From Herpetosiphonaceae bacterium (lineage in GTDB: Bacteria; Chloroflexota; Chloroflexia; Chloroflexales; Kallotenuaceae), in assembly GCA_036374795.1 (NCBI GenBank), contig DASUTC010000231.1:1-47419 (forward strand): a DNA stretch of 47,419 nt, in the 5' to 3' direction. The notes below the pieces were generated by a model that was not told where the DNA came from, ran no database searches, and saw only the letters and a list, made by a program, of their open reading frames with translations. Of the stretch, positions 8,401 through 38,914 are shown one piece after another. The first letter of the stretch is position 1. Each line of letters begins with the position of its first letter. Position numbers and translations under genes: made by a program.

Positions 8401-11400
8401 GCCACAGGGCATTGCGCTCGCGGCAGACGGCAGCCTGTATATCGCCGATGCTTACAACGACCGTATCCGCAAAGTCGCGCCCAACGGCATCATCACCACG
8501 GTGGCCGGTACCGACACGGATGGATTCAGCGGCGATGGCGGCCCGGCGACTGCTGCCGAGTTGGACTATCCACACGCTGTGGCCGTTGCCAGAGACGGCA
8601 GCGTGTATGTAAGTGATTATTCCAATCGCCGCGTCCGCCGGATTGGGCCGGATGGCGTGATCTGGACCGTGGCAGGGACCGGCGCCTGGGGCGATGGCGG
8701 CGATGGCTTCGTGGCCACCAGGGCGCAGCTTGGCGGTCCGGCAGGTCTTGCTGTCGATGCCGCCGACCACCTGTATATCGCCGACATGGATACGAATCGC
8801 GTGCGGCGTATGCAGCCACCCCTGTCGGGCTTCAGCGGCGTCGACGAGGTTGTCCTGCCGTCGGCAGATTTGGCCGTGCCGTCGGCAGATGGACGCGAAC
8901 TCTATCTGTTCACGGCGACCGGCCGCCACCTGCGCACCCGCGATGCGCTGACGGGCGACATCCTGTACAGATTCGACTATGACGCGGCGGGGCGGCTCAT
9001 CACGATCACCGACCGCGTTGGTCTCCAGACCCGGATCGAGCGCGACGCGGACGGTACCCCGGAGGCGATCGTCGGCCCCTACGGCCATCGCACCAGCCTG
9101 ACCCTCGACGCCAACGGGTGGCTTACACGCATCACCAATCCGGCCAATGAAACCACGCAGGTGACCTACACCGCGGATGGCCTGCTGACGTCGCTGACTG
9201 ATCCGCGCGGTGGCGTGCATACCTTCAGCTACGACGCGCAGGGCCGGCTGATCCGTGACGCCAATCCGGTCGGCGGCGTGACCACGCTCACGCGCACCGG
9301 AACCGCGCAAAGCTACACCGTGACCGTGAAGAACGCGCTGGATGATGCCACGCGCTACACCGTCGAGCAACTCCCCAACGGCGATCGACGGCGGACGACC
9401 ACCGCGCCCAACGGTGCCGTCACCACGACCCTGACCAAGCCGGACGGCACCGAGATCACCACCGCTCCTGACGGCACGATCACCACACTGGTCAAATCAC
9501 CCGATCCCCGCTGGGGCATGCAAGCGCCCTATATCTCCTCCCTGACCATCACAACGGCGGACGGCACGCGGTTCCTCACCATCACCGCCAATCGCACGGT
9601 CACGTTCAGCTATCCTGGCGATCCGCTGACTCTCCTGACCCAGACCGATACCCAGACGGTGAATGGTCGGACCACGACCAGGGTGTACCAGGCCACGACC
9701 CGAACGTTGACCACGACGACACCGACGGGTGAGCGCACGAGTGTGGTCCTCAACCTCCAGGGCCAGCCGATCCGCACAGACACCACCAATCTGGCGACCA
9801 CGCTCTTCGACTACGATGCCCAGGGCCGCCTGATTCGCACCAGCGAGGGTACGGGTGTCATCACGCGCACCCAAACGCTGGCCTATACCGCCCAGGGCGA
9901 TCTGGCGAGCCACACTGACCCGCTCGGCGCGACGACCAGCTTTACCTATGATGCCGTCGGTCGCGTGACGACCCAGGTGCTACCGACCGGGCAGACGCTC
10001 ACCTATAGCTACGACGCCAGCGGCAACCTTCTGAGCAGCACCGATGCGCAGGGCGTTCTCACCACCTCCACCTACGATGCCCAGAACCGCCGGACGAGCC
10101 GGACACTCGATCCCGATGGCCGGGCCGTCCGCACGACCTATGCCTACGACACCGCCGACCATCTGATGGAGATCGTGGAGGATGCGGGCAGTGGCCGTCT
10201 CAATGTCACCACGCGCTACGAATACACGCCGATCGACGACCAGGGCTACGCGATCAGCGAGCACATCGATCCGCTGGGTGGCATCACCCGCACCGGCTAT
10301 ACCGTCTTCGGCGAACCCAGCAGCATCACCGACCCGCTGAACCGGACCACCACGATCGGCTATACCGCCCAGGGCTGGGTCGCAAGCGTGACCACGCCCG
10401 GCGGATTGCGGACTACCACCACCTACACGAGTGACGGGTTGCCTGCCCGCGTCTCCGATCCGCGTGGCAGCACCACCGTGATGACGTATGATGCGGCGGG
10501 CCGCTTGGCGACACTCACCACGGGTGCGACGGCGATCGGCAGCGTACCCGCGCTGAACCACACGACGACCTACGCCTACGATGCGAACAGCCGCGTCACC
10601 AGCGTGACTGATCCCCGCGGCACTGTGACCCGCTATGCCTACGATGCATTCGATCGCCAGACCAGCGTGACCGATCCGCTCGGCACGCTCACGACCTATG
10701 GATACGATCTGAATGATCAGCTCACCGGTGTCATCCAGGCCGCCAATGTGCCGAGTGAGGCGCTCGCCGTCGCCTACAGCTACGACGCGGTGGGCCGCCT
10801 GCTGACGGAGCGCGTTGATCCCGATGGGCAGAACCTGCGGACGGAGTACCGTTACAGCCGCGCGGGTAGTAGCGATACCTGGAATCTCCAGCAGGTGATC
10901 GATCCACGCGGCAACGCGACCGCCTACCGCTACAACACGCTGGGCCTCCGCGATCAGACCACCGATGCGCTCGGCAGCACCTGGAGCCTCAGCTACGACA
11001 ACCTGGGCCATGTCACGGCCCAGACTGATCCGCTCGGTCGGAACAGTACGACCAGCTACGATCCGCTGGGCCGCATCACGGCGATGACCGAGGATGGCCG
11101 GACCCAGCAGTGGAGCTATCACGGCGACTCGACCCTCGCCAGCTTCACCGATTTCCTGGGGCGGATCACCCGCTACAGCTACGATCTGGACCGTCGGCTC
11201 ACCGGGGTGGACTATCCCACGGGCACTGCCGATCCCAGCTATACCTACGATCCCGCTGGCAATGTCACGCGCATGACCGACGGCTTGGGCACGACGGACT
11301 ACACCTACGATGCCGCGAACCGCGTGATCAGCCGGGCGCGCGGGGGTCGCACGGTCGGCTACACCTATACCCCGAACGATCAGATCACCGCGATCAATTA

Positions 11401-13102
11401 TTGGGGCCAGGGCCAAGTCAGCTACGGCTACGACGCCGCCGGGCGACTCACCAGCCTGACGCCGTGGAACGCCAGTCCAACCAGCTACACCTACCGCGCG
11501 ACGGGGCTGCTGAAGACGCAGACGCGGGCGAATGGCACGACGACCGCCTATGGCTATGACAGCGCCAGCCGCCTGACCAGCATCCGGCACGCGCGCGGGA
11601 CGACGCTGGAGCAGATCCAGTATGGGCTCGACGCCAACGGCAACCGGACGCAGCAGACCAACGGCGATGGCGTGACCACCTACACCTATGACGCACTCAA
11701 TCGCCTGGTGGAAGCCAGCTATCCGGCGATCGCTAGCGGTCCCGCTGCGAGCAGCGTGGCGTATGGCTACGATGCGCTCGGCAATCGGACGACCGTGAAC
11801 GGTGTCCCGACCTACAGCTACGACGCCAGCGGGCGGATCACCAATCCGGGCTTCAGCTACGACGCCAACGGCAACCTGCTCAGCGACGGCACGACCGCCT
11901 ACAGCTACGATGCTGCCAACCGGCTGATCCAAACGGTGCGCGGCGGCACGACGACCAGCTACGCCTACGACGGCTGGGGCAACCTCGTGCGCGAGACGGT
12001 CGACGGCGTCACCACGGACCTGATCGTGGATGAAGCCACGTCGTTGCCGACGATTCTGGGCGAAGTCGGCGCAGACGGCACAGTGCTGCGCTATACCTAT
12101 GGCCCCGATGGTTTCGCGGCGCAGCAGCGTGTGAGCGGCAGCGCGCAACCTGTCGCGTTTGCGCTGCTCGATGGCCTAGGCAGCGTGCGGCAGCTCACGG
12201 ATAGCACCGGTACCAGCGTGCGTACGAGCAGCTACGACGCCTTCGGCACCATCCGGCACCAGACCGGCTCCGCCACGACGCCGCTTGGCTTTACCGGCGA
12301 GCGCAGCGGCACGGCGGACGGCCTGCTCTATCTCCGCGCGCGGCACTACGCGCCGGAGCTGGGCCGGTTCCTCCAGCGGGATACGTTCGCGGGCTTCATG
12401 GACCGACCGCAGTCGCTCAACCGCTATACCTATACCGAGAATAATCCCGCGACGCTGATCGATCCGAGCGGGCATGCGGCGGCCAAACCCTGTCCGAGCA
12501 AGCCGAAAGACAATGACGGACCCAGGCCGGATGGTGGCATGGTGCCATCGTGTAATACCAAGGCTGCCCTCAGCACCGCCCTGGACTTTATCCCGGTGGT
12601 CGGCGATGTGAAGGGCGTTGCGGAAGCGTTTACCGGCTCTGATCTCGTGACGGGCGAAGACCTGGGCAACTGGCGCTGGGCAGGTTTAGTCGGAGCAAGC
12701 GAACTGCGATCCTTGCGTCACCTTGACAAGGTGACGGTCGGCGGGACGGGCAAAGCGTATGACGCCGCCAATGGGCAGGGCTTGTATGTGCTCCGGGACA
12801 GCGCGGGGAACGTGAAGTATGTCGGACGCGGTGATGCGCCGGCGCGAGGAGGGCAGCACGCGAAACATCCAACCAAGGGCCAGTACTGTCAGGAGATTCT
12901 GGCAAACAATAATCTGACGGAGGCGCAAGCCACAGGGCTGGAGCAGCGCCTGATCGATGAGTTTGGACTGTCAAAGAACGGCGGGCAGCTTGACAACAAA
13001 CGGAATGAAATCGCGAAGACCAATCCGAAGTATGATGAGTATATGCAAGCAGCGGAGGCGCTCTTCAACGAGATCTTGAAGCGGGCTGCATCGCGACCGT
13101 GA
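2489..13102 (+). CDS. Secreted NHL-Rhs polymorphic toxin with GIY-YIG-like nuclease tip
   Basis: The product is 3537 aa. The ATG at 2489 follows AAGGGAG (2475-2482) and opens a signal peptide (hydrophobic SLIHLFVCVALLL). Domain order, with approximate residues: PKD 42-130; second PKD-like 133-230; a GGGWF-containing domain 230-345; Thr/Pro linker 380-455; fibronectin III 455-545; carboxypeptidase-regulatory-like 593-665; 18 NHL repeats 1108-2111 (each ending like SLYIADTGNHRIRKV); YD/RHS repeats 2155-3330 closing with the Rhs core RARHYAPELGRFLQRD and IDPSGH; a pre-toxin TG-like segment (ALDFIPVVGDVKGVAEAFTG); and a C-terminal domain 3420-3537. That last domain has GLYVL...KYVGRG and a downstream LEQRLIDEFG, the pattern of GIY-YIG nucleases. 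In known Rhs systems the core forms a cocoon around the toxin tip, which is delivered to rival cells. The immunity gene follows at 13391. The NHL plus YD layout resembles teneurins. Nuclease activity is inferred from motifs only. Confidence 0.9.
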   Translation: MHHRRLPLLSSLIHLFVCVALLLQSSAWPAPTRAASLAVTQNRPPVADGGGPYTVAEGGTVQLDAAASTDPDGDSLTIAWDLDDDGTYETFGQAATFSAAPLDGPRTFPVYLRVCDSHSACDTDSVDLEITNRAPTIGAVSAPRDPLTVGSVVTATATFTDASVLDTHTSRWHWGDGTTSGGTTTETGGSGSVTATHRYPTPGVYTLNVDLFDDDCGTAQAPFQYVVVYDPSGGFVTGGGWFESPAGAYPADPTLRGRANIGFNAKYQALSTTPTGQTEFQFTAGNLAFRSTRYDWLVVVGGQAQYRGTGTIGGGTYSFLMTVVDGDYAGGSAADTFRIKIWDDARAFVVYDTQPGASERAAPTTPLGGGSITVRTLGTIPPPTPVPTPSATATPEPGCVPSATPTPAPTRTPVPTNTPTPTPTNTPTATPTDTATPTATSEPPTPTATPTDGPPSDLTPRGLWWSRKTTTTISLTWEPPTDAASVTGYDLYQGSTRLTTTTDTAYMVTGLTPDTEYTFTVRARDAAGNLSPPSASATVRTTALETLPPDPAVIAPPSDRTVSSDLASDTAFLYTGPNPIQVGVAPGTIDTRRVAVLRGRVTDDEGDPLPGVTVAVLDHPEYGHTRTRTDGMFDLAVNGGGIVTLTYTKEGYLPLQRQIPASWRDYEWLPEVTLLALDPVVTTVELDGSSEALLAVGSVVTDADGTRQSTLLFPSDVTATLQLADGSTEPLSTLHLRITEFTVGERGPSAMPGTLPPSSGYTYAAEFSVDEALAADATVAFSQPLVNYVENFVGFPVGGIVPTGYYDRTKAAWIASDNGRIIKLVGITAGLADLDITGDGVADDAAGLGVTIEERQQLGSRYAVGQELWRVLIPHFTPWDHNWPFGPPDGAIGPNGGPPKDRDTPEDNPCTRGGSIIACENQTLGEEIAVSGTPLHLRYDSDRAKGRTAAHTLEIPLSGASVPSSLREVRLGVSVAGQQFTQTLAPAANQTQTFTWDGRDAYGRRVQGSQTATVSVGFVYGAVYQEPAAFAQSFGRFGTGVAITGNRSLSEVTTWQQYSSTLEFLDAQGQGLGGWTIDAHHTYDPVGQTFFPGSGDRYTAQGIGHTIETTAGGGPGVPGDGVPATSAPLYSPEDVLWAADGSLYIADTANHRIRKIAPNSVISTVAGNGTRGFAGDGGPATNAQLYNPSGILQDADGGLFVADTGNDRIRKLDSTGQIRTVVGGGPGAPGDGGPSTSAPLSNPEDVQWAADGSLYIADRSNHRIRKVAPNGIISTIAGNGTQGFSGDGGPATNAQLYNPEGIWVGADGTLYIADDGNHRIRRVSPDGIITTVAGGGSTLGDGGPATSARLFDAYDVVLGPDGSLYIADAWDGRIRKVAPNGVITTVAGNGNYGFSGDGGPATSATLGFPIGLALGPDGSLYIADAGNNRIRKVSPSGIITTAAGTGAQGFSGDGGVATAAQLNFPTDVRVDTAGRLYITDSSNQRIRRVDASGVITSLVGGGSTLGDGGPATNARLANPSGIWVGVDGSLYIADASHHRIRRVDTNGMISTMAGTGSAGYVGIGDGYAATQARLNDPSAMAWGPDGSLYIADTGQHRIRKVSPDGVITTVAGNGTPGFGGDGGQGIYAMLGYPGGIGVGADGSLYIADTWNNRIRKVSSDGVITTVAGNGTRGFMGDGGPAINAQLDNPEGIRMGADGSVYIADTWNNRIRKIAPDGIITTVGGGGGWGSRGDGGPATAAELNRPNSVALTADGSLYIADTGNHRIRRVGSDGVITRVAGTNTAGYGRPGDNIPATQAKLYLPYDVAPSADGSLYIADERNALIRRVGPDGIITTVAGTEGTAGFSGDSGPAINAQLNGPESVALSPDGSLYIADTRNNRIRRIGPDGIITTVVGTATWGFSGDGGPAINAQLDWPTDLSVAADGSLYIADAGNNRIRKVSPNGIITTVAGSGDWGFSGDGGPALNAQFDWPQGIALAADGSLYIADAYNDRIRKVAPNGIITTVAGTDTDGFSGDGGPATAAELDYPHAVAVARDGSVYVSDYSNRRVRRIGPDGVIWTVAGTGAWGDGGDGFVATRAQLGGPAGLAVDAADHLYIADMDTNRVRRMQPPLSGFSGVDEVVLPSADLAVPSADGRELYLFTATGRHLRTRDALTGDILYRFDYDAAGRLITITDRVGLQTRIERDADGTPEAIVGPYGHRTSLTLDANGWLTRITNPANETTQVTYTADGLLTSLTDPRGGVHTFSYDAQGRLIRDANPVGGVTTLTRTGTAQSYTVTVKNALDDATRYTVEQLPNGDRRRTTTAPNGAVTTTLTKPDGTEITTAPDGTITTLVKSPDPRWGMQAPYISSLTITTADGTRFLTITANRTVTFSYPGDPLTLLTQTDTQTVNGRTTTRVYQATTRTLTTTTPTGERTSVVLNLQGQPIRTDTTNLATTLFDYDAQGRLIRTSEGTGVITRTQTLAYTAQGDLASHTDPLGATTSFTYDAVGRVTTQVLPTGQTLTYSYDASGNLLSSTDAQGVLTTSTYDAQNRRTSRTLDPDGRAVRTTYAYDTADHLMEIVEDAGSGRLNVTTRYEYTPIDDQGYAISEHIDPLGGITRTGYTVFGEPSSITDPLNRTTTIGYTAQGWVASVTTPGGLRTTTTYTSDGLPARVSDPRGSTTVMTYDAAGRLATLTTGATAIGSVPALNHTTTYAYDANSRVTSVTDPRGTVTRYAYDAFDRQTSVTDPLGTLTTYGYDLNDQLTGVIQAANVPSEALAVAYSYDAVGRLLTERVDPDGQNLRTEYRYSRAGSSDTWNLQQVIDPRGNATAYRYNTLGLRDQTTDALGSTWSLSYDNLGHVTAQTDPLGRNSTTSYDPLGRITAMTEDGRTQQWSYHGDSTLASFTDFLGRITRYSYDLDRRLTGVDYPTGTADPSYTYDPAGNVTRMTDGLGTTDYTYDAANRVISRARGGRTVGYTYTPNDQITAINYWGQGQVSYGYDAAGRLTSLTPWNASPTSYTYRATGLLKTQTRANGTTTAYGYDSASRLTSIRHARGTTLEQIQYGLDANGNRTQQTNGDGVTTYTYDALNRLVEASYPAIASGPAASSVAYGYDALGNRTTVNGVPTYSYDASGRITNPGFSYDANGNLLSDGTTAYSYDAANRLIQTVRGGTTTSYAYDGWGNLVRETVDGVTTDLIVDEATSLPTILGEVGADGTVLRYTYGPDGFAAQQRVSGSAQPVAFALLDGLGSVRQLTDSTGTSVRTSSYDAFGTIRHQTGSATTPLGFTGERSGTADGLLYLRARHYAPELGRFLQRDTFAGFMDRPQSLNRYTYTENNPATLIDPSGHAAAKPCPSKPKDNDGPRPDGGMVPSCNTKAALSTALDFIPVVGDVKGVAEAFTGSDLVTGEDLGNWRWAGLVGASELRSLRHLDKVTVGGTGKAYDAANGQGLYVLRDSAGNVKYVGRGDAPARGGQHAKHPTKGQYCQEILANNNLTEAQATGLEQRLIDEFGLSKNGGQLDNKRNEIAKTNPKYDEYMQAAEALFNEILKRAASRP
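5812..8820 (+). repeat. 18 tandem NHL-repeat coding units
   Basis: About 3.0 kb inside the Rhs gene is built of 18 in-frame units of roughly 165-175 bp. Each encodes a block ending in (S/T)LYIAD-x-x-N-x-RIRKV, followed by a turn rich in GDGGPAT. Several units share near-identical DNA such as GGCAGCCTGTATATCGCCGA, which suggests recent internal duplication. Eighteen units would fit three six-bladed beta-propellers. This is also a region where assemblies can miscount copies. Confidence 0.9.
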
Positions 13103-14658: not shown

Positions 14659-15661
14659 CTAGGCTGCCTCGTGCTGATCCGATCGGGCGGGCTGCGGTGC
14701 CGGAAACGGAATGATCGTCGGCTCCGGTTCGGCGCCGAGGCCATGTTGGCGCAGCACGGCCTCGGCGCGGAGGATCGTTCGGCGCATCCCGTGTCCATTG
14801 AGTCCATACAAACGGAGGTTGATTTCTCCCATGAGGCAGCAGGTTTTGTCTATGTCTTGCCCGAAGTACCGGACGAGTCCCAACTGGTTCATCCAGTCGT
14901 CAAAACAACTTGCGCTGGCGAGCAGCATCGCGCCGCTTCCAACACAGGGGTCATAGACGGTGACGGGTTCGTAGTGCTCGATCGCATGGGGGGATCACCC
15001 GTGCGATGAACCACGCCTGCGCCACCTCGCCTTCGAGGAGACTGCCCGCCAGGAGCGCCGCCTGCGCTGCGGGCGATTGTTCAATGGCGGCCTGAAGGTG
15101 GCGATGGACCTCCGCCCGACCATCGCCGATGAGCAGTCGCGCCATGACGGTCGTGACCGACATGGGAGTAAAATACTGGCCCAGCCCCGTGTGCGGCCAG
15201 CCCCACGCCATGTAGATGAGGCCCACAATGTCCATGTACCCGACCGTCGCGCTCAACCGCAGCTCGGCAAACGCCTGGAGGAAATAGTCGAGATACTGCT
15301 CGTTCGCGCCCTCGCGGAACGGATAGGTCGTGCGCAGCCGCGCCAACAGCGCAGCGACGTGCGGCGGATCTGCGGCAAGGTCGCCCGTCTCGGCGAGCGC
15401 CTGCTCGTGCTTCGGCTCCATGTCCAGCAGGGCATGCACCAGCTCCAGCCAGTCGGTAAACACATCGTCTGGACGGCGACCGACGACGGTGCAGCGTTCG
15501 AGCAGCTTGATGATCTGCTTGACCGTCCGCGCCTCAAACGCCTGGCCGTCATCAACGGTAGGCGTGGATCGCGCCGGCGGGATGATCTGCCCCTCCACAT
15601 CGGAGGGTGCGCGGTTGCTCGCTGTTGCTGTTCGCTTGGGCAGAGTACGTTTAGACGCCAT
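14659..15661 (-). pseudogene. N6-adenine methyltransferase N-terminal half, frameshifted
   Basis: Translation from the ATG at 15661 (GGGAG about 11 nt upstream) gives an HsdM-like N-terminal helical region, then GLGQYFTPMSV, the motif X region of gamma-class N6-adenine methyltransferases. At a run of six C (coding strand, 14993-14988) the frame breaks. The next frame continues smoothly with EHYEPVTVYDPCVGSGAMLL, the SAM-binding motif I, and NLRLYGLNG, then ends at 14659. The catalytic NPPF motif (IV) is absent from either frame. One base too many in the homopolymer explains the break: a true mutation, a sequencing slip, or programmed +1 frameshifting. If joined, the product would be about 330 aa. 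The gene at 19069 carries the complementary catalytic half. Confidence 0.75.
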
Positions 15662-16377: not shown

Positions 16378-16455
16378 TGGTGCGGGAGACAAAGACTCGA
16401 ACGTTGTACCCTCCGGTTTTGAAGACCGGCGCGCTACCAATTGCGCCACTCCCGC
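16378..16455 (-). tRNA. tRNA with UCA (opal) anticodon, tRNA-Trp-like
   Basis: The 78-nt gene folds as follows: acceptor stem GCGGGAG/CTCCCGC (7 perfect pairs), D stem GCGC/GCGC with AATTGGTA loop, anticodon stem CCGGT/ACCGG with loop CTTCAAA, T loop TTCGAGT, discriminator A and encoded CCA. The anticodon is UCA, which reads UGA. The D loop and anticodon arm match bacterial tRNA-Trp closely (CAATTGGTAG, CCGGTCT-CAAAACCGG) except that CCA became UCA. The variable region is short, unlike tRNA-Sec. Oddities: the T stem is CAACG/CTTTG with one C-T mismatch and an extra A-T pair, giving a 13-layer acceptor/T stack, and the discriminator is A rather than the usual G of tRNA-Trp. It may be a UGA decoder or suppressor carried by the mobile element. 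Confidence 0.85.
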
Positions 16456-16492: not shown

Positions 16493-18238
16493 TTAGGCCG
16501 CCCGCCGCTGCTCGCCGGTCAGCCAGAGCGTGGTGTCCGGCAGCGTCCAGGTGATGATCGTGATGTGTGGCTCGTCGCTCGCCGACTCGCGGGCCTCGCT
16601 CTGATCCAGATCGGCGGCGGTGCAGCCATGCGCGGCGATGGCGTGCTCGCGCAGCGCCGCCAGCTCGTCGTGGCCGGCCTGCTGGGCCTCCGGCAGTGCC
16701 GCCGCCGACGCGCCGCAAAGCTGGCACTGGAGGTTTGACACCCCCGGCTGCGGCGCGGGTGTCATCTGCCGCAGCTCGGTGGCGAAGCGGCAGTCCGTCG
16801 CCAGCTTGTCACCGGCGGGGCGAATATCGAGCAGGACCGGGCGGTTGAGCTGCCCGTTCATGGTCATACGCTCCGTGCGCACCGTCACGACCATAGCACG
16901 CTCCCCAGCGTCCCAGCGGCGCTGGAGCTCGTCGCGCTGCGCGTCGGTCATGCCCGAACCCACCTCGCCGATCGACACGAGCGTGCCGCCCTCGTCGTAC
17001 AGGCCGCATGCGATCGCGCCGACGCGGCCCGTGTTGCGTCCCTTGCCCGGCTGGATGCCCATGACCACGACATCGAGCGTGTTGAAGCCGAACTTGACCT
17101 TGGTCCAGGCCCGCGTGCGGGCGTCCTGGTAGGTGGCGGTCGCGTCGCGGAAGACGAGGCCCTCCCAGCCCGCAGCCATGCCGCGCGCAAACAGCGCGCG
17201 CTTGCCCGCCTCGTCGGCGGCGACCTCGACCAGCAGGATCGTGTCTTGCTGCCCCAGCGCGCCGATCACGGCCTTGAGCAGCGTGAGGCGCACATCCTGA
17301 CGGGTGGCGAGCTTGCTGGTCATCGCCGGGCAGGCCAGCAGGTCGAAGGCGACAAAGCACTGGCACGTGGCATCCATACCGACGTAGAGCGCTTCCTGCC
17401 CATCATCCGTTAAGCCAACTAGCTCGCCATCCAGTGATGTCTCAGCGGGCAGCTTTGCCGCGATCGCCGCGATGTGTGCCGGGCATGGAACTTCGCCCCC
17501 GCTCCGGTTGGTCATGATCACCTCGCCACCCGCCAGCACATGGATTTGTGCGCGCCGCCCTTCCATCTTGCGTGTCGCAATCCAACCTGGATTGCTCAGG
17601 AACGGCTCGGCCATCGCCCTGATGCGGGCCACATCGTCGGCGATCGGCAATTCCTTTGCCGCTTCGCAGAGCATCACTGCCACCGGATAGGGCGTGGCGG
17701 GTGCAGCACCTGGGGTCGGAGCGGCAACCGGCGCGCTCACCGGCGCAGCGGGGTGTTCCGGCGGGCTGGGGTGCGCTGTGGCCTGGGCGGTCGACGCAGC
17801 CTGGGGTGCCGGAGCGGGTGCTGGCTGGGCGGGCGCGGCGGGCGCGGGCGTGGCCGGAGTCGTCTGGGCTGCCTGGGCGGCAGCCTGCCGACGAGCAAAC
17901 GGCAGCAGTGTCAGCGGACGACCGACCTGCCAGAGCTGATCGTGGAGCGGCAGATCGCCGTTCGCATCCAGGCTCTTGCTCCAGGCTGCCGCGCCGTAGG
18001 CGCTCATCGTCCCCGCCAGCATAGTCACATAGGAGCGCGGGCTGCCTTTTCGTTTCTTGTCGGCCTGTTTGAGCAGCGCCTTGAAAGCGTCCTCGCGGCT
18101 GGAGCCACTGTAGAGGGTTCCCTGGGCGATAGTGCCCTGCGTGTAGGCGTTCACGACGAATGTGCCGCTTCGGTCCTCAACGAGAATCTCGTAGGTGGCT
18201 CCAGTGTGGGCCATGCCCCCAAAATATCCAACCAGCAT
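16493..18238 (-). CDS. ATP-dependent DNA ligase with N- and C-terminal accessory domains
   Basis: The product is 581 aa. I chose the ATG at 18238 because AGGAG lies 8 nt upstream. Residues 14-75 resemble a degenerate WGR-like nucleic-acid domain (YEILVEDRSGTFVV). An Ala/Pro-rich linker spans 117-185. The nucleotidyltransferase core shows motif I ATRKMEG (Lys224 nucleophile), motif III LDGELV (269-274) and FDLL (298-301), motif IV EGLVFR (359-364) and motif V KVKFG (380-384). An OB-fold-like segment follows. The C-terminus has CQLC (505-508) and H532/H537, a possible zinc site. It should seal nicks in duplex DNA using ATP. There is no LigD polymerase or nuclease domain and no Ku gene in view, so it is likely a mobile-element repair or replication ligase. 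A consensus promoter lies upstream. Confidence 0.85.
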   Translation of the reverse strand: MLVGYFGGMAHTGATYEILVEDRSGTFVVNAYTQGTIAQGTLYSGSSREDAFKALLKQADKKRKGSPRSYVTMLAGTMSAYGAAAWSKSLDANGDLPLHDQLWQVGRPLTLLPFARRQAAAQAAQTTPATPAPAAPAQPAPAPAPQAASTAQATAHPSPPEHPAAPVSAPVAAPTPGAAPATPYPVAVMLCEAAKELPIADDVARIRAMAEPFLSNPGWIATRKMEGRRAQIHVLAGGEVIMTNRSGGEVPCPAHIAAIAAKLPAETSLDGELVGLTDDGQEALYVGMDATCQCFVAFDLLACPAMTSKLATRQDVRLTLLKAVIGALGQQDTILLVEVAADEAGKRALFARGMAAGWEGLVFRDATATYQDARTRAWTKVKFGFNTLDVVVMGIQPGKGRNTGRVGAIACGLYDEGGTLVSIGEVGSGMTDAQRDELQRRWDAGERAMVVTVRTERMTMNGQLNRPVLLDIRPAGDKLATDCRFATELRQMTPAPQPGVSNLQCQLCGASAAALPEAQQAGHDELAALREHAIAAHGCTAADLDQSEARESASDEPHITIITWTLPDTTLWLTGEQRRAA

Positions 18239-18602
18239 CTCTGCGCTCCTTGAACGATGGCGAATGGGTCGCGTGCGCGGGTCCGTTCTTTCCTTGCTAT
18301 AATTGTAGCATAATAGGTTACAGTTGTCAAAATACCAAAACGTTTTGCTATGATACGGGTTTTTTTTGCTGGTCCCTGCGTCGGAGGTGGGGCAACGAGG
18401 TGGTGCGCCCAAGGTCTATTGGGCGTACCTGGGGGAATGGGGAACGGTGGATGCGGAGGTCACGGACGCCCGCGACCTCGAAGACCCAGGCGACGACCTA
18501 GACCGTGCTGCTGATCAGGATTGGCGTGGGGCCGCCGGCCATCGCTTAGGCAGCCGGTGGCCCCACCATCGCTGCGTGCGCGACCGTTAGCGCCGCATTG
18601 AG
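18239..18602. other. Intergenic region with ligase promoter
   Basis: This 364-bp gap lies between the ligase start and the end of the next gene. The 90 bp nearest the ligase are AT-rich and hold its promoter (18302-18330). The rest (18365-18600) is GC-rich and I see no gene or repeat in it. Confidence 0.6.
18302..18330 (-). promoter_or_regulatory. Sigma-70 promoter of the DNA ligase gene
   Basis: On the minus strand, TTGACA (18330-18325), a 17-nt spacer and TACAAT (18307-18302) form a near-perfect sigma-70 promoter 64 nt before the ATG. The spacer begins ACTGTAA, as in the promoter at 24120 and, with one change, the one at 23082, suggesting a shared operator. Confidence 0.8.
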
Positions 18603-19068: not shown

Positions 19069-19869
19069 TCACCAATCTTGATTCAACAACATCTGCAATT
19101 CGTCGAGCGTCTGCATGATCGTGCGTTGGTTCTCCAATAACCGCTGAATAATGACCCGCGGATCGTCGTACTGGATCTCAGGTGTGCGTTGCGGCTGGTA
19201 GCGACGCGCATCGAGTTCGTAGGCTGAACCGAGCGCTTCGACGGGCGTTTCCCAGGTTTCCATGGTTTCCAGATCAATGCTCACTGGTTCGGGTGATCGC
19301 CGTGAACGGTGCGCACGCTGCGGCGCCACTGGATAGGCGTAGAACCGGATCTGCGTTGTTCGACCTTCCGCCTGCACCATCAAGATGCTGGTACTCACGC
19401 CAGCAAATGGGTAAAACACGTCGCTGGGCAGCGAAATAATCGTCTGCAGCATGTGGTCTTCAACCAGTGTTTTGCGGAGTTTCACCAGCACCTTGGTCGA
19501 ACCAAACAGCATGCCGTCGGGGAGAATCACGGCGATCCGGCCACCGCGGCGCACCTGCTTTAAGATCGCAGCCGTGAACAGGATCTCGGTTTTGGTTCCC
19601 CAGGCTTTCAAGTCGGGACGCACATCGGGCAGATAGCACGCTCCGCCAAATGGTGGGTTGCTCACGATAAAGTCATGCTGCGTTTCATCAGCGTCGGCGA
19701 GCGTATCGCGCTGGGCGATCACCTGGCGCGGTACACGGGAGCGCCCAGGGTGCTGGGCGGCGGATCGGGGCTCGGCCGATGGAATCCAGCCGGCCGAGCG
19801 TACGAGCAGGGTACTGCTGCCTAGATCGGCCATGTGGTCGGGTCGTCGTGGTGCGGTGATGGTCGTCAT
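19069..19869 (-). CDS. N6-adenine methyltransferase C-terminal half (HsdM-like, NPPF motif)
   Basis: The product is about 266 aa from the ATG at 19869; no strong ribosome-binding site marks the start. From residue 54 it matches gamma-class methylases of HsdM type: RDTLADADE, then NPPF (motif IV, N71), LLF-like FTAAILKQVRRGGRIAVILP, DGMLFGS, and VFYPFAGVSTSILM, ending in a helical tail. The first 50 residues are not recognisable, and motif I (SAM binding) is missing, so alone it should not bind cofactor normally. The gene at 14659-15661 holds exactly the missing half. It overlaps no neighbour but begins 54 nt after the RNA ligase gene ends, so the genes are probably co-transcribed. It is either a truncated remnant or one partner of a split enzyme. 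Confidence 0.7.
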   Translation of the reverse strand: MTTITAPRRPDHMADLGSSTLLVRSAGWIPSAEPRSAAQHPGRSRVPRQVIAQRDTLADADETQHDFIVSNPPFGGACYLPDVRPDLKAWGTKTEILFTAAILKQVRRGGRIAVILPDGMLFGSTKVLVKLRKTLVEDHMLQTIISLPSDVFYPFAGVSTSILMVQAEGRTTQIRFYAYPVAPQRAHRSRRSPEPVSIDLETMETWETPVEALGSAYELDARRYQPQRTPEIQYDDPRVIIQRLLENQRTIMQTLDELQMLLNQDW

Positions 19870-19922
19870 GTCGCTGCGCGCATCGTCGCGGGCATGGGCA
19901 GGTGCCATGCCTCGCGCGTCGT

Positions 19923-20975
19923 TCAGGAGATCTGGCGCGACGAGCCGCGCCGATCCTCGTTGGTCTGCAGGCCATTGGGGACCACCGGCTGCCGGACCCA
20001 ATTGTGGACGGTTTGCACATGCCCCGCTCGCACATATTTGGCCACCGACTGGCGGAATGCGCTATACGGGAAGGCATCGGCCAGGCGCACGACGTAGCCT
20101 TCGCACGGGTCGCCATCGAGGACGGGCTGGTACATGCCCTGAATCAGCTGCTCGTCCCAGATGCCGCGATACAGCACGGGGACCAGGCTCAATTCCAGTA
20201 AGGCGGTCCATTCTTCGGTTTCCGCCCACGAGAGGCAGTGGTTGCGATCGCTCCACATGCTGAACACCTGGAAGTAGCTGCCGAGATGGCTGTAGGCGAT
20301 CGAGTGGCGCGCATACAGGTTTTCGCCGCACACGCGATAGCCAGGTGGGATGTCGTAGGCAATCTGCGCGTGCAGCTGTTTGACCCAGCTTTGTGAGGGA
20401 TGCGCCGCCGACGCCACCGAGCGCCCGTGGATGCCATCCCGGTAGAGCGTGGTATTCGCGCCGTCCATCTTCGCCGTGACGACGACCTCGCATCCGACGA
20501 AGGCACGCACATCGGCCAAGGCCAGGTCGTCCTCGGCGCGACCGGGACTCCACGGCAGATGCGGCGTGCGTGGATACTTGACCCGATCGCTGAACAGATG
20601 GTGGACGCCGCCAGCGCGCAAGATCCGCTGCACCGACTCGTCGTCAAAGAGTTCGCCGCGCAAGCGGGTCCCGTTCGCTACTTCGTAGTTGCCCCATTTG
20701 TCGATGCGATCCGCGTCATAAAACTGCGGTGGTAACAGAATCTGGCGAATGCCGGCAGCCTGGCGGATGTCGTCACAGCTCAGCGTCGTTTGTTCGGCGG
20801 CGATATGATGATCGGCGCAGAGCGATGCACCGTTCTGGAGATAATAGCCGCCATCCGGCCACAGCCGCCGCTCGACGATATGGTGGGCGTCCTGAGCGGG
20901 CGCGCCACAGATGACACAGCGGTGGTGGTCGCGCTCAAAGACAGCATCGCGGAATTGGGTGCGTGTTAACAGCAT
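19923..20975 (-). CDS. HNH nuclease - RNA ligase fusion protein
   Basis: The product is 350 aa from the ATG at 20975 (GAGG about 10 nt upstream). Residues 10-60 form an HNH domain: CVIC (20-23), DAHHIV with H31/H32, N48, C53 and H56/H57. Residues 95-330 look like an Rnl-type RNA ligase: motif I AKMDG (Lys169 nucleophile), motif III CGENLYARHS (E218), motif IV EGYVVRL (292-298) and motif V KYVR (313-316). Known RNA ligases of this family join RNA ends after nucleolytic damage such as tRNA cleavage. Fusing a nuclease to a ligase could allow cut-and-rejoin or repair of a specific break; this is inference. It sits between a methyltransferase piece and a small protein gene on the same strand. Both domains look intact. 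Confidence 0.8.
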   Translation of the reverse strand: MLLTRTQFRDAVFERDHHRCVICGAPAQDAHHIVERRLWPDGGYYLQNGASLCADHHIAAEQTTLSCDDIRQAAGIRQILLPPQFYDADRIDKWGNYEVANGTRLRGELFDDESVQRILRAGGVHHLFSDRVKYPRTPHLPWSPGRAEDDLALADVRAFVGCEVVVTAKMDGANTTLYRDGIHGRSVASAAHPSQSWVKQLHAQIAYDIPPGYRVCGENLYARHSIAYSHLGSYFQVFSMWSDRNHCLSWAETEEWTALLELSLVPVLYRGIWDEQLIQGMYQPVLDGDPCEGYVVRLADAFPYSAFRQSVAKYVRAGHVQTVHNWVRQPVVPNGLQTNEDRRGSSRQIS

Positions 20976-21037
20976 CGACCGCCTCACGATCGGGTTGCAG
21001 GCCAAAAGAGTAGCGTACCAGGCAGATGGATGAACCG

Positions 21038-21463
21038 CTAGACCTCCCGGATGATCGTTGGCGTTTCGTCCGTGAGACCGGGAATCACCAGCCAGAACCA
21101 CTGTCGGCATTTGAAGAGCCGCAGTTCCAGCAGGTCGTCAGGAAAGGTCTGGCCGCCATGGCCCTGCCAGTGGCCCAGATGCGTAAGCTGCTGCTTGGCG
21201 CACGGCGGACAGAGATCGCCGGGCTGGCCTTTGTCGATGGTGTAGCCGTCAGCGGCGGGATCGAGCGGCTGGGGAGCCGGGATGCGTCCGTGATCGGCAT
21301 CTGGGCAGGGCCTCCCGCCGAGCTCCGCAGCGACGATCCCAGAGCAGATCAGCGTGTCGGGGTAGATCGTGCCGTCGGGACTGAGAAACAGCGCCCGGGG
21401 GGCCTGCATCAGATGATTGGGCTGGGTATCGTCAGGAAGCTGCCTGTGGGGGAACGTCGTCAT
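21038..21463 (-). CDS. Hypothetical protein with CPPC motif
   Basis: The product is 141 aa from the ATG at 21463, with AAAGGA about 12-17 nt upstream. The middle contains GDLCPPCAKQQLTHLGHWQGH, which could bind a metal through two Cys and two His, and the end has CRQWFWLVIPG. There is no signal peptide and no family I recognise. It lies 62 nt before the HNH-RNA ligase start and after the sigma-factor gene on the same strand, so it may belong to the same transcript. Confidence 0.6.
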   Translation of the reverse strand: MTTFPHRQLPDDTQPNHLMQAPRALFLSPDGTIYPDTLICSGIVAAELGGRPCPDADHGRIPAPQPLDPAADGYTIDKGQPGDLCPPCAKQQLTHLGHWQGHGGQTFPDDLLELRLFKCRQWFWLVIPGLTDETPTIIREV

Positions 21464-28025: not shown

Positions 28026-28835
28026 TCAGTCACGCGCGAGCGGTTCGAGCACCTGGGATTGCACCAGGTGCCGCCAGTGCGCGGCCACCTGTTGCGGCAC
28101 GGGGCCGCCGCGCACCAGCACCCCCAGCTCCATGTTGAGATTCAGCGCGTAGTGTGTGAGGTTGGCGCTCGACACGTAGGCCAGCGTGCCATCCGCGACG
28201 GCGCACTTGGCGTGGAGCGCGCCGGTCTTGCCGCTCGCGTCCTGCGGTCGCCGGTCGCGCGGCCAGCGCAGCACCGTCGCGCGGTCGACCACCTGCGCGC
28301 CCAGCGCGGCCAGCCCGTCGTAGGCGATCTTCCCGGCGCTCGCCTGGGGCGACTCGACGATCAGCCAGAGGCGCGCGCCCCGGTTTGCCGCCCGCGCCAG
28401 CGCCAGCCCGATCTCCGGCACGTCGTAGACCGCGAAGGCCACGATGATCAGCTCGTGCCGCGCCGCGTCGATCACCTGCTGGAGCGCCTGGGCCGTGCGG
28501 CGGAGCGGGATCGGGCTGGCCGGGCCGGTCCAGACCAGCTCGACCTGCTGCTGGGCCTGCACCTGGGCGGCGGTCGCCGCGGCGGACTCCAGCGCCAGCG
28601 CCAGGCTCTCCGGCGTGACCGCGGGTGCCGCCTGCTGCCAGGTCGCGATCAGCCCGGCCAGGGTGTTCCGGGCGTGCGGCGTGCCGGCGGCCTGCTGCGC
28701 GCGGGCCAGCAGCGTGCTCCACGCGCCCGGCGGGACCGTCCGCAGCGCGGCGGCGACCTGGCCGATCACCGGCGCGGGCAGCTCGAGCGCCAGGGTCGTC
28801 AGCGCGGCGAGCAGGGCCGGCGGCGGCGCGCTCAT
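28026..28835 (-). CDS. drmC: DISARM phospholipase D-like protein DrmC
   Basis: The product is 269 aa. It has one HKD motif, LHAKCAVAD (about residue 205), followed by SSANLTHYALNLNMELGVLV, the pattern of PLD-family nucleases/phospholipases, and an upstream IIVAFAVYDVPEIGLAL strand-helix segment. In DISARM systems DrmC is a PLD-like component whose contribution to defence can be dispensable. Its ATG overlaps the drmB stop by 4 nt (ATGA), typical translational coupling. Last gene of the drmA-B-C operon; it ends 3 nt from the convergent regulator gene. Confidence 0.9.
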   Translation of the reverse strand: MSAPPPALLAALTTLALELPAPVIGQVAAALRTVPPGAWSTLLARAQQAAGTPHARNTLAGLIATWQQAAPAVTPESLALALESAAATAAQVQAQQQVELVWTGPASPIPLRRTAQALQQVIDAARHELIIVAFAVYDVPEIGLALARAANRGARLWLIVESPQASAGKIAYDGLAALGAQVVDRATVLRWPRDRRPQDASGKTGALHAKCAVADGTLAYVSSANLTHYALNLNMELGVLVRGGPVPQQVAAHWRHLVQSQVLEPLARD

Positions 28836-30688
28836 GCGATCCCCGGAAAGAACGCCAGCGCGCCGGTGTCGAGCGTCGGCACCAGCAGCGTCCGGTCCAG
28901 AAATTTATTGCCGCGCTCGCACGAGGTTTCGGGCGCGTGCAGACAGGCGTGGCAGGCCGCGCCCTGGACCACCTGCGCGTCCAGCAGCGGCGTATGCTCC
29001 GCGCAGAGCGGGTCGGAGGTACACAGCCGCATCGCGCTCAGCGCGGCGTCGAGATGGCGGCCCAGCTCGCCGGGCGATCCCAGGCTGACCAGCCCGCCGA
29101 GCGTGCCCTCGCTGTCCGGCGCGGCGGTGTAGAGCAGCAGGCCGGCCATCGGGCCGTCCTCGGCGGTCGGCGGCAGGGCATAGATCCGCTCGCGGATGCT
29201 CGCCAGCGTGTAGCCGCATTCGAGCGCCAGCTGGCGTATCAGCGCGTGGCTCAGCGAGTGCAGCAGCACATAGCGCAGGCCCGGATACGGCACCGTCGGG
29301 TCCAGGCGGCGGCGCCGCCGCCACTGCCGGTGCGCCTGGGCAAAGGCCCGGTCGCGCTCGGCCAGCGCTGGCCGCGCGCGCAGCCACTCCATGATCGCGT
29401 CCTCCCGGAACTGAAGAAACAGACCCTCGCCATGCACTTCGGTCGCCGGCACCCAGGTCGGCGCTTTGCGGGCGAGCGGCGCCCGCGTCTGCTCCGGCAG
29501 CTCCAGCGCCTCCTCGAAGTCGCCCGGCGAGGCGATGCGCGTAAAGCCGAGCAGCGCGCTGACCTCGCGCAGCCGCTCGACCAGCACCACCCGCTCGATC
29601 ACGCCGGCATACGCCGACGGCGGCGGCACCTCGACGACCTGAAAGTGGGGCAGGCTGGGCGCGGCCTGCGGCGCGGTCAGCACCTGCCACTCCGGCGCTT
29701 TGAGCGCGCGCGGCTCGGACGCTGGGCCCGCTCCGCTGCGCTTCCGCTCGATCGCCGCCCACACGTCACCCGCGCCGTAGTCGATGAGCTGCGGCAGGTT
29801 GCCGAGCTGCATCAGCAGCTCGACGTTCTGCTGATTGACCAGCTTATCCAGCACATGCCAGTGCGCCTCGACGAGCTGGCCGAGCCGATCGACCGCCACG
29901 GGCACCGAGAGCGCCGTGAGCGTGATGCCGAACCAGCTATTGGACGCGCCCAGCAGGATCGTCTTGAGCGGCTGCGCGCAGCCGGTCTCGGCGAAATCGC
30001 GCAGATGCGGGCGGCGGCCCCGGCAGGCGGGTAGATTCTGCTGTGCCTCCTCGCCGAAGGCATCCGACATGCGTCGGCGAGCGCCGCAGCCGGCGCACTC
30101 CACGTCGATCTCCGCCGCCTCGCCGGAGGCCCCCAGCTCCTTCAGGCGCAGCGGGCCGTTGCACGCCTGCGCGCCCCGGTGGACGAAGAAGCGCCAGGGA
30201 AAGTCGTCCAGGTGGCCGTGCTCGCAGGCGACCAGAAAGCGCGCGGGCAGGACCGCGGGCGGCGCGCCGGGCCGGGCGCAATTGCTGTGGATGTAGCGCG
30301 TGCGCTCCGGGCGGGCCAGATCGGTCTTGAGCTGAACGAGGCCGGAGTCGAGCGGTGCCAGCAGGCGGCAGTAGGGGCACAGCAGCCAGCGCGGAAAGGT
30401 CGCGACGGGTACGCCGACCTGCGGCGGCTGCGCGAAGGGATTGGCCGTCGGCGGCGTGGTGTCGCGCGGCGGTCCGAGCAGCCGCTCCACCTGCTGGCCC
30501 AGCTCGCGCTGCACCGCCGTCAGCAGGCGATCCTCGCCAATCTCTTGCGCGCGCCGGGTATCCCAGTCGTCCAGGCCCATGATCATCACCGACAGGTGGG
30601 GCAGGTCGATCACCGCGCCGACGCCAAAGGTATGCAGCAGCTGGCTGGGTCGCACCTCGCCGACGGAATATTTCTCGAATATGGTCAT
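28832..30688 (-). CDS. drmB: DISARM protein DrmB (DUF1998)
   Basis: The product is 618 aa. It begins GEVRPSQLLHTFGVGAVIDL, a hallmark of DrmB, and has several Cys pairs likely to bind zinc (CPYCRLL with NCARP, CAGCGARRR). The C-terminal DUF1998 domain ends CHACLHAPETSCERGNKFLD. DrmB is reported to form a complex with the helicase DrmA that recognises and processes incoming phage DNA. The start is 12 nt after the drmA stop, and the gene overlaps drmC by 4 nt. Length and motifs look complete. Confidence 0.9.
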   Translation of the reverse strand: MTIFEKYSVGEVRPSQLLHTFGVGAVIDLPHLSVMIMGLDDWDTRRAQEIGEDRLLTAVQRELGQQVERLLGPPRDTTPPTANPFAQPPQVGVPVATFPRWLLCPYCRLLAPLDSGLVQLKTDLARPERTRYIHSNCARPGAPPAVLPARFLVACEHGHLDDFPWRFFVHRGAQACNGPLRLKELGASGEAAEIDVECAGCGARRRMSDAFGEEAQQNLPACRGRRPHLRDFAETGCAQPLKTILLGASNSWFGITLTALSVPVAVDRLGQLVEAHWHVLDKLVNQQNVELLMQLGNLPQLIDYGAGDVWAAIERKRSGAGPASEPRALKAPEWQVLTAPQAAPSLPHFQVVEVPPPSAYAGVIERVVLVERLREVSALLGFTRIASPGDFEEALELPEQTRAPLARKAPTWVPATEVHGEGLFLQFREDAIMEWLRARPALAERDRAFAQAHRQWRRRRRLDPTVPYPGLRYVLLHSLSHALIRQLALECGYTLASIRERIYALPPTAEDGPMAGLLLYTAAPDSEGTLGGLVSLGSPGELGRHLDAALSAMRLCTSDPLCAEHTPLLDAQVVQGAACHACLHAPETSCERGNKFLDRTLLVPTLDTGALAFFPGIA

Positions 30689-30700
30689 CTCGCGTCCTCT

Positions 30701-33700
30701 CTACTGCGACGGCTGCGGCTGCTCGGCGCTGGGATCGGGCACCAGCGCGGCGACAAAGGGCGGCTCCTCCTCGCTGCTCAGGCCGCGCTCGTCGAGGATC
30801 AGATCGACCGTCGGCTCGACCTCGCGCAGCGAGTTGAGGCAGGTGAAGGTCTGCCAGGGGCCTTCTTCCGGGCGGTGGAGCAGCCCGACGGTCAGGCCGT
30901 CGCGCTGGCTGCGATAGCCCAGCGTGCGACCGCCGGCACTGCGCTGGGCCTCCTGCTCCCACGCATCCACGCGCTGCTTGAGCGCCTGCTCGATGAGCGC
31001 GGCGGTCGTCTGCCGGGTCGTCACCAGCGCGGCGCGCCGGGCAATCGCCGTCATCGCCGTCGTGATATACGGGTGGCTGCGCTCGATGCGTCCGGCGCGG
31101 TTATTGGCGTTGAACTCCATGCCGAGCAGCCGGACATACGCCACCAGCAGCGCCGAGAGGCCGCGATCGATCGCGCGGGCCGCGAAGGGCGTGACCGAGA
31201 GCGCCTCGACGTGCTGGTAGAAGGTGGCGTGGTAGTGCTCGAAGCGCTCGTAGTGGCTGAGGTCGCGCGGGCGGGTCCAGTTATACACCGTGCAGACCAG
31301 GCCCGGCGTCGCGCGTCCGACGCGGCTGGTGGCCTGGATGTACTCCGCCGTGGTCTTGGGCTGCCCGGCCACGACCATCAGGCCCAGGCGGCTCACGTCG
31401 ACGCCGACGGCGATCATATTGGTCGCCAGCAGCACATCCAGCGGTCGCGGCAGATCGACGGCGCGCCCCGCCTTGCGTGCCTGCGTCCGCTGCGCCTCGA
31501 TCGCCGGATCGAAGGGCGTCTCCAGCAGATTCAGCACGCGGGGAATATCGGTCGAGCCTTTGCGCGAGGTCAGCTCTTCGAGCAGCAGCCCGCTGCGCTT
31601 GGCGAGGCCGCGCTGGTCGGTCTTGGCGAGCCGCGAGCGCACGTCGTCTTCGACCAGCCGCCGCATGCCGCCCAGCTCGCGCATGGCGTTGAAGTAGCCG
31701 ACCAGCGTCATGTACGGGTCCGCCGCTCTGCCGTAGCGCTCGTAGAGCCGCTGGCTGGCCGCGAGATAGGCGACATACACGCGGATCAGCACGGCCTTGA
31801 GCCGCTTGCCCGACGCGCAGATCCCGATGTATTTCCGCCCGGGCGTGTCCGGGCCGGGCGCGCGCTGCGTCGCAAAGAAGTTGTCGCCGGCATCCAGGCC
31901 CTGCGGCGGGAAGACCGCGACCGTGTGCAGGAAGAGCGCCTGCATCTGGTCCGCCGCCCGCCGGATCGTCGCGGTCGAGGCGATCACCTTAGGCCGCACG
32001 CGCATGCCGCCGACCTCCCAGGACGACAGGTGATCGACGCCGGTTTCGTACAGCCCGACCAGCGTGCCGAGTGGGCCGCTGATCAGGTGCAGCTCGTCCT
32101 GAATGATCAGGTCCGGCGGACGCAGCGGGCCGTGCGGTCGGGTCTGCGCGGCGGGCAGCCCATCCTTGGCCGGGTGGCGATCGGCGTCCGCGATCTCCGG
32201 CGAGCGAAAGCCGTGCCGCTCGCAATAGCCGTCGACCTGGCCGAAGAGCATCTGGACCGGCCCTTTCCAGGGCATCTGCGCGAACTTATCGACGGTGGCG
32301 ATCAGCAGCGCGGGCAGGCGGCGGTAGATCTCTTCATCGACGACCAGCACCGGCAACCCCTCGCCGGGAGCCTGCCGCTGGCTGAAGGGGCAGTCGCCGA
32401 GCTTGTCGCCACAGTAGAGCAGCGTGCGGCCAGCCGTCTTGTTGACCACGACATGCTTGCCGGGGTCGATCGCGGTGCCGCACCAGGGGCAGTGGGTGAG
32501 CTGATGGGGCGAGCCGCTGCCGCCGAAGGCGCTGGGCTGGCCGCCGTCGCGCTTGAGCGCCTCGGCGCTGCGCTCAGTGGTATTGGGCGTGGTGCGCTCG
32601 CCGACCCACAGCCCGATGCGGAAGGGTGTGGTGCCCCAGCGGTGATCGCCCTGGGCAACGGCAGCGCGCCGGATCGTCTCGCAGGCGCAGATCAGCGCGG
32701 TGGCCCGCTGGAACTGCTGGAGCGTCAGCAGGCGCAGCGTGTAGCGCATCAGCACCGCGACGCCCTCCAGGCCGGAGCGACCGGCGACCACGCCCTGCAA
32801 GCGCCGGATGCCCAGCGTGTAGGCCGTCAGGCCGAGATACGCCTCGGTCTTGCCGCCGCCGGTGGGAAACCAGAGCAGATCGGCCAGCGCGTCGCCGTCG
32901 CCGGTGCGGTCGGGATGGCGCAGATCGGTCAGCGCCGGGAGATTGATCAGGATAAAGGCCAGCTGGAAGAGCCGCCACGAGCGCTGCGTCGGCACGTCAA
33001 GCTCCTCAATCGTGGCGGCGCGCCCCCGCCTGCGCTCCTCGGCCCAGCGCGTATGGACGCGCTGCTGCCACATGGCGCGGTTCATGAAGCGAAACGCCTC
33101 CGCCGCCTGCTCGTCGGCATCCAGCAGCGCGATCCCCGCCGCAATCCGGTCGCGGGCCAGCATGCAGCGGTCGAGCACCTCCTCGGCGACAGGCGCGTAC
33201 TCGGCCAGGCCCTCCGCAGGGTCGCCGATGCGTGTCCGCTGCCGGGCGATCCAGCGCGTATACGCGGCGATCAGCGGCTCAAGCGCGGCAGAGAAGCCAC
33301 CACGCGGCAGCTCGGCGAGCGCGCGCATGTCCAGCTCGACGCGGGCGATCTCCGGAATCTCGTCCGCCGTCGGGCTGATGGTGGGGCCGACCTCGTAGCT
33401 GGGCACGACGCGCGTCACGATCGCGGTGGCGCAGGTGGGATCGGCAGGCCAGAGCTGGGCATGGACGGCCACGCCGTGACCGACGGCAAACTCGACCTCG
33501 TGGCGGTAGAGCATCGCCATCGCCTGGTCTTCGGCGGCGGCGACGGCATCCGCGGCGGGCGGGCGGCGCAGATCGGCACGTCGGCGGAAGATCGGCGCGC
33601 CATCCGGCGCGGCGACGCGCAGCTCCGGCTGGAAGATCCAGGCGGTATCCCGGCTGCGCTCCGGCTCGTCCTGCTCGTTGATCAGAAAGACCGTCACGCT

Positions 33701-37666: not shown

Positions 37667-37788
37667 GATGCACCTCCTTAAATTAGGTGGACGCAGGTGG
37701 ACGTGCAAGGAACAACATCACGGTGTGGGAATGAGGCGGATCGTCGTTGTTTGCTGAGATGCGCTGGGGGCTGCGGCATCAGATGCAG

Positions 37789-37887
37789 AATGTCTACTAA
37801 ATGCTATTAGCAGACATTCTTGACCTTTTCCTCGCGTCATAATGTCTGCTAATGCTGCTTCGTACCCGTCTTTGTAATGTCTGCTAA
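37789..37887. mobile_element. TnpI recombination site (IRS) with core and two accessory sites
   Basis: The core is AATGTCTACTAA (37789-37800), a 6-bp spacer ATGCTA and the inverted arm TTAGCAGACATT (37807-37818). Two direct copies of AATGTCTGCTAA follow at 37841-37852 and 37876-37887, spaced 22 and 23 nt. This is the IR1-IR2-DR1-DR2 plan of the Tn4430 site, where TnpI resolves cointegrates without host factors. It lies between the divergent tnpA and tnpI and probably also regulates both. Confidence 0.85.
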
Positions 37888-37916
37888 TATACCTGCACAA
37901 TACATGGAGTGCAGCC

Positions 37917-38870: not shown

Positions 38871-38914
38871 TGGTTTGTTTCATGGTGTATCTCGCAGTGA
38901 TAGCCTACGCCAAA

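Follow-up and report, generated by a model that had tools for sequence, protein, structure and literature searches.

RNA ligases of phages and plasmids are thought to reverse host attacks on tRNA, and the locus studied here raises the question of what such a ligase does when an HNH nuclease domain stands ahead of it in the same polypeptide. The locus lies on a contig of 47,419 bases, which was analysed as a whole and is called the window in the following. The first-pass annotation had described an HNH domain in front of an Rnl-type ligase with both active sites intact, and this description held, as the C20...H57 set of the HNH domain is complete and the ligase carries K169xDG, E218, E292G and K313 (Table 1). 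We regard the fusion as a two-domain repair enzyme, in which a working nuclease and an RNA ligase that seals nicks would serve a single repair pathway and the nuclease would not be an unrelated weapon, and we give this reading a probability of about 0.5.

Table 1. Features of the HNH-RNA ligase fusion locus in the window
Feature	Position	Strand	Basis or remark
HNH-RNA ligase fusion CDS	19923..20975	minus	350 aa, stop TGA
HNH domain, residues 1-66 (C20, C23, H31, H32, N48, C53, H56, H57)	20778..20975	minus	alignments and model
H31-H32 codons	20880..20885	minus	
Conserved connector, residues 67-129 (DKWGN, RLRGELF, VQ motifs)	20589..20777	minus	alignments
Rnl2-class nucleotidyltransferase domain, residues 130-324	20004..20588	minus	PF09414 and fold comparison
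Nucleophile Lys169 codon (motif I KMDG)	20469..20471	minus	
Possible 45-codon upstream extension	20976..21110	minus	most relatives do not cover that stretch

The fusion is read from the minus strand, the plus-strand translation of 19923-20975 being interrupted by stops. The longest open reading frame at the locus (19923-21110) encodes 395 aa, and because the alignments of relatives begin at about residue 47 of this frame, the start at 20975 (M46 of the long frame) is preferred; in the resulting 350-aa form the earlier numbering of Lys169 and H31/H32 matches exactly. The AlphaFold2 model of the fusion protein had a pLDDT of 91.9 and a pTM of 0.84. When the window protein was aligned with 54 chosen relatives, C20, C23, H31, H32, N48, C53 and H57 of the HNH domain as well as K169, D171, G172, E218, E292, G293 and K313 of the ligase were invariant (55/55), a figure that describes intact-type members, since the rows were chosen among 84 dereplicated loci with broken and pseudo-ligase loci excluded. 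This invariance in both sites indicates that the two-site architecture is not due to chance.

By its sequence and modelled fold the C-terminal domain is an ATP-dependent RNA ligase of the Rnl2 class and a putative nick sealer. It matched the Pfam family RNA_ligase (PF09414, E=2.6e-29) and contains the KxDG motif I and the conserved E, EG and KxVR motifs of the class, and residues 130-321 superposed on T4 Rnl2 (1s68) with a Z of 15.9 and on Naegleria NgrRnl with a Z of 15.6, whereas DNA ligases gave lower values of about 11-12, which places the RNA ligase folds nearer. With T4 RNA ligase 2 and NgrRnl the fusion has the nucleotidyltransferase fold in common over about 177 residues, together with the same catalytic motif I; however, identity to these enzymes is only 16-18%, and the N-terminal part of the fusion models as HNH plus connector. 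Rnl5 ligases (NgrRnl, DraRnl) are defined by an N-terminal OB domain ahead of the nucleotidyltransferase, and residues 1-129 of the fusion form no such domain, consisting of the HNH domain and the connector with only two strands of at least three residues (model, DSSP).

The N-terminal domain matched HNH_2 of Pfam with E=6e-4, slightly below the Pfam cutoff, and holds both the zinc Cys/His set and the metal and base residues of an HNH endonuclease, where the metal-ligand roles of H31, H57 and the other residues are presumably those familiar from the HNH family. Modelled alone (residues 1-125), this part reached a pLDDT of 95. A phmmer search of PDB sequences with the fusion protein gave no match, and the best PDB sequence match of the profile was IscB (E=0.018). 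Mean pairwise identity among 97 dereplicated intact fusions was 64% for the HNH domain, 65% for the connector and 53% for the ligase; hence, in intact fusions the HNH half is more conserved than the ligase half.

A single protein that can both cut and seal had been called unusual, and a search for the same fusion in phages and plasmids had been proposed. This search was successful, and its outcome does not support the first of these statements, as the fusion is widespread in phages and plasmids and has already been published: the fusion protein had matches in 33/50,697 phage records and 51/72,556 plasmid records, with at least 80% coverage in 16 and 11 of them, respectively. Several of the phage records represent a single phage deposited in both GenBank and RefSeq, and the plasmid matches with at least 80% coverage were, among the matches listed, all on replicons above 400 kb. 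A scan of viral contigs yielded 367 relatives, of which nearly all of the best 80 are fused, and a genome scan yielded 27 loci, the closest being from Litorilinea and Anaerolineae MAGs (62%). Moreover, PHROG 24030, labelled 'RNA ligase' (342 positions), spans residues 47-382 of the long frame with the HNH domain included (E=4.6e-126), profile positions 3-341 of 342 being matched in one polypeptide. In a quick tree, in which the frameshifted L059 carries the label 'alone', the window protein stood next to the protein from Anaerolineae, within a group of viral fusions (SH-aLRT 89, not starred). Since the fusion was present in 1/301 genomes of the phylum sample and 1/4 of the genus sample, in both cases the window's own, it is an accessory gene.

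In a 2021 review of jumbo phages, one sentence, citing Burroughs and Aravind 2016, mentions N-terminal HNH domains in some Rnl2 members and reports no functional test (PMC7824862). These jumbo-phage proteins (PHROG 24030) have the same architecture as the window protein over the full length, whereas the latter is encoded on a bacterial contig among whose annotated open reading frames no phage structural genes were recognised. Among the titles and abstracts listed in searches of an open-access library, none further concerned the HNH-Rnl2 fusion, and no activity of the fusion was reported in the literature searched. The fusion is a true observation and a new member of a known, widespread family. 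The first-pass annotation had itself allowed for a widespread known family with a different role, and only the former part of this was borne out. What was not found in print in the open-access literature searched is that the HNH subfamily almost never occurs without the ligase, nearby separate genes included, that the gene order of some operons is Rnl, HNH, HD-Pnk, and that the two domains show a double dissociation.

When a separate HNH gene was used as the query, 16/50,697 phage records matched and the ligase was present in 16/16, with 14 fused forms and two records (probably one phage) in which HNH and ligase are distant separate genes. In a wider phage set the ligase accompanied 18/19 HNH-positive records, the exception (LR756511) matching the HNH query over a short stretch and the ligase not at all; likewise, the HNH subfamily was found in 16/72,556 plasmid records and the ligase in 15/16 of these (12 fused, 3 split), the exception being a short, weak HNH match in Staphylococcus hominis. 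Separate HNH genes, whose phage-type forms terminate at the connector's KWG motif, are usually close to a ligase gene. In 5/27 viral loci they preceded a separate Rnl by 0.7-3.5 kb on the same strand; elsewhere they were located between Rnl and HD-Pnk in operons of Undibacterium (L066) and Variovorax SRS16 (L176), and in a Bacilli MAG (L067) last in the order Rnl, HD-Pnk, unknown gene, HNH. For the three split Variovorax plasmid records the neighbourhood was read in SRS16, the other two being assigned by the spacing of HNH and HD-Pnk alone. These counts show that the HNH subfamily belongs with the ligase in a dedicated association, and the HNH domain is probably an active metal-dependent nuclease dedicated to Rnl.

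This association bears on a suggestion made in the jumbo-phage review, according to which the HNH domain might attack phage or host DNA and the ligase meanwhile repair RNA (PMC7824862). The chain would then carry two independent activities, one hitting the DNA of competing phages or of the host and the other mending cleaved tRNA. Such a division of labour would agree with the best solved Foldseek matches of the HNH domain, i.e. the HNH domains of the DNA cutters Cas5-HNH, IscB, McrA and Cap5, for all of which E was above 0.001, and with the DISARM genes that are also present on the window contig. However, a free weapon would be expected to occur away from the ligase, and the phage and plasmid counts given above, as well as the separate HNH genes in or near Rnl/HD-Pnk operons, run counter to this expectation, so that we consider two independent activities unlikely.

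Members in which one of the two halves has decayed are informative about the role of each. Among 114 fused rows with the key columns filled (20/134 alignment rows were excluded, either as pseudo-ligases or for a gap in a required column), H31, H32 and H57 are kept in 108, and the HNH metal ligands are lost with the ligase motifs kept in six (L027, L031, L034, L036 and L056, Pseudomonas; L038, Croceicoccus). The absence of metal ligands in homologues, which the first-pass annotation had named as evidence against its proposal, was thus found in a minority (6/114) and not in 108/114. H31 and H57 are gone in these six plasmid-type proteins, C20, C23 and C53 are kept, and H32 is kept in 5/6. Since the metal ligands are lost beside a live ligase, nuclease activity appears to be dispensable in the six. 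The reverse situation was found in four Bacteroidota MAG proteins (L060-L063), in which the HNH domain retains a mean identity of 56-62% while the ligase domain has fallen to 25-31% and lacks motif I and other motifs. The genes next recognised after the HNH-pseudoligase are, in L060 and L062, an active (complete) Rnl followed by HD-Pnk, and in all four of these genomes HD-Pnk was matched across most of its length. Because the HNH-dead and ligase-dead lineages each keep the other half, each domain is apparently under its own selection, and the two lineages represent natural separation-of-function mutants with which the role of the HNH domain can be tested directly. Viral searches found no relatives of L060 or of L027. 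In a fusion on a haloarchaeal Natronococcus plasmid (L179, 3977-5128) both sites are changed, with AHQ in the HNH domain and KTGG in motif I.

The six plasmid-type proteins could also be taken to mean that the main task of the HNH domain is to bind zinc and recognise nucleic acids, with an incidental nuclease activity, as they retain the Cys set and a complete ligase without H31 and H57, and in none of the 97 dereplicated intact fusions has the HNH domain diverged as far, relative to the ligase, as in these six (z -3.9 to -9.2). A binding module is nevertheless very unlikely in view of the 108/114 rows that keep H31, H32 and H57, the conservation of the HNH domain, which exceeds that of the ligase, and the four Bacteroidota proteins with a preserved HNH domain and a dead ligase.

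HD-Pnk, which combines an HD domain with a P-loop kinase, heals 2',3'-cyclic phosphate and 5'-OH ends; cleavage by HNH enzymes leaves 3'-OH/5'-phosphate ends. It adjoins the ligase family of the fusion in D. radiodurans, Pseudomonas FeN3W (L036), a huge phage (L030) and genomes of the window's phylum. It was present on 8/12 plasmids with a full fusion compared to 40/72,556 plasmid records overall, and in the window's phylum a strong HD-Pnk match occurred in 9/9 genomes with a separate Rnl match, compared to 12/301 overall. Relatives of the window's ligase are thus operonic with HD-Pnk, as in the bacterial HD-Pnk/ligase operons exemplified by Runella HD-Pnk (for which a search of open-access papers returned none), but the window's genome gave no HD-Pnk match beyond the HD region (E=1.9e-5). 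None of the annotated long open reading frames of the window is HD-Pnk, and no HD-Pnk/ligase operon was recognised among them. The searched genomes with a fully intact fusion contained no full-length HD-Pnk, one match being partial at a contig end and the others partial, and HD-Pnk was found in 1/50,697 phage records; most fusions therefore seem to work without it. The idea that HD-Pnk in the genome permits the decay of one domain is unproven, as the Fisher P of 0.0019 over rows rose to 0.25 once the Pseudomonas plasmids and the Bacteroidota were counted once each.

The D. radiodurans match is the operon of DRB0100 (ligase), DRB0099 (PARG) and DRB0098 (HD-Pnk); DraRnl (DRB0094) was rejected as the matching locus. 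The ligase domain of DRB0100 is about 51% identical to that of the window protein and belongs to the same family, but DRB0100 has no HNH domain. This ligase-only relative is adenylylated on its lysine and sealed none of the DNA and RNA substrates tested, and its operon is radiation-induced (PMC1997131). In a later paper the operon is grouped with an active PARG acting on ADP-ribosylated RNA ends (PMC11833690). A Nonomuraea ligase of the fusion's family (L040, 4950-6938) continues in frame into a C-terminal part that resembles P-loop kinases and is related to DRB0098.

If the fusion is a repair enzyme, the HNH domain would cut or trim a damaged or blocked strand to ligatable 3'-OH/5'-phosphate ends, after which Lys169 would be adenylylated and the nick with its 3'-OH and 5'-phosphate sealed; in lineages with HD-Pnk, the latter would heal other ends (2',3'-cyclic phosphate, 5'-OH) ahead of sealing. 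The elements would then possess a cut-heal-seal route of their own that could fix ends beyond the reach of the ligase alone. The anatomy of the fusion, the conservation of its residues, the dedicated pairing of HNH with the ligase and the HD-Pnk linkage in relatives are observations, whereas the nuclease activity, the substrate, the order of events and any role in the host or against its defences are inferred. A more far-reaching and doubtful extension is that HNH, Rnl and, where present, HD-Pnk constitute an RNA excision-repair machine, in which HNH would remove RNA ends that are damaged or blocked chemically, HD-Pnk heal the rest and Rnl seal; jumbo phages would encode it as a single fused protein, some bacteria and phages as separate genes, and half-dead fusions would be complemented by another gene. 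We count against the repair-enzyme reading that DRB0100 seals nothing tested, that HNH enzymes mostly cut DNA, that the HNH ligands are lost in 6/114, that the HD-Pnk link does not extend to most fusions, that LR756511 matched the HNH domain without the ligase, and that tRNA proximity reached only P=0.086 (see below).

As HNH enzymes mostly cut DNA, the substrate could instead be DNA or an RNA/DNA hybrid, cut and sealed during replication, recombination or the life cycle of a mobile element. The relatives do include the radiation-induced DRB0098-0100 operon, and the neighbours of the fusion, both in the window and in HGTV-1, include DNA ligase and DNA methylase genes. We consider a DNA or hybrid substrate quite unlikely, however, because the ligase fold is nearest to RNA ligases and because the PARG (L160) and NADAR (L063) genes next to relatives, as well as tRNA arrays around the fusion in L025 and L048, point to RNA. 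On the same evidence the proposed repair enzyme more likely acts on RNA, possibly on tRNA.

The first-pass annotation had placed the gene next to an opal tRNA and suggested a role in tRNA repair. The tRNA is real (16378-16455, minus, anticodon UCA, Rfam 60.6 bits) but lies 3.5 kb away with two long open reading frames in between. Across 125 loci with 369 tRNAs, tRNA density was lower near the gene (0.18/kb within 4 kb) than beyond (0.27/kb), and a tRNA occurred within 400 nt of the gene in 9 of the 40 tRNA-bearing loci compared to 5.7 expected, an enrichment that is not significant (P=0.086), and we did not accept a link to the opal tRNA in particular. The repair component of the suggestion is in line with the Rnl2/NgrRnl-like fold and the HD-Pnk link of the ligase family, whereas its tRNA component is weak (same P value). 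In single cases, namely Variovorax RA8 (L025), JS1663 (L048) and a phage contig (L073), the fusion gene is inside a tRNA array; the Variovorax arrays of L025 (4246-8188) and L048 comprise 23 and 25 tRNA genes, respectively. An HNH gene of Anabaena, all8564, is co-regulated with a tRNA operon (PMC10272220); the plasmid matches of the fusion's HNH subfamily included no Anabaena record. The anticodon arm of the window's UCA tRNA resembles by eye that of bacterial tRNA-Trp, and UGA recoding on the contig was rejected, as TGA is the stop of 11/21 listed open reading frames.

Synteny comparison of the window with relatives revealed nothing in common except the fusion gene and generic families, a near-DNA search of the region against plasmids gave short matches only, mostly to sigma-factor genes, and PADLOC found nothing on the fusion. 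The DISARM genes DrmC, DrmB and DrmA (NCBIfam) are located at 28026-34246 (minus). Lower GC content marks the region 34700-46536, whose genes include a type II/III-like methyltransferase, a UvrD/GajB-like helicase and one with a weak match to type III restriction, and the 1002-aa product of 34700-37708 is without a PADLOC match. The ATP-dependent DNA ligase (639 aa, 16493-18412, minus) had no match over its first approximately 230 residues in Pfam, NCBIfam and PHROGs scans. The methylase may be split, since 19069-20001 (minus) encodes a portion of an N6 DNA methylase and a YFTP motif can be seen by eye in 14951-15661 (minus). The plus-strand frame 2357-13102 encodes a protein of 3581 aa with long repeats that are RHS/YD-like by eye. 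In each of the two nearest relatives a SAM methyltransferase gene (L041, 6628-7380; L042, 2153-2860) lies upstream of the fusion, and in L042 the fusion is followed downstream by two unknown genes (879 and 209 aa) with 4-nt overlaps.
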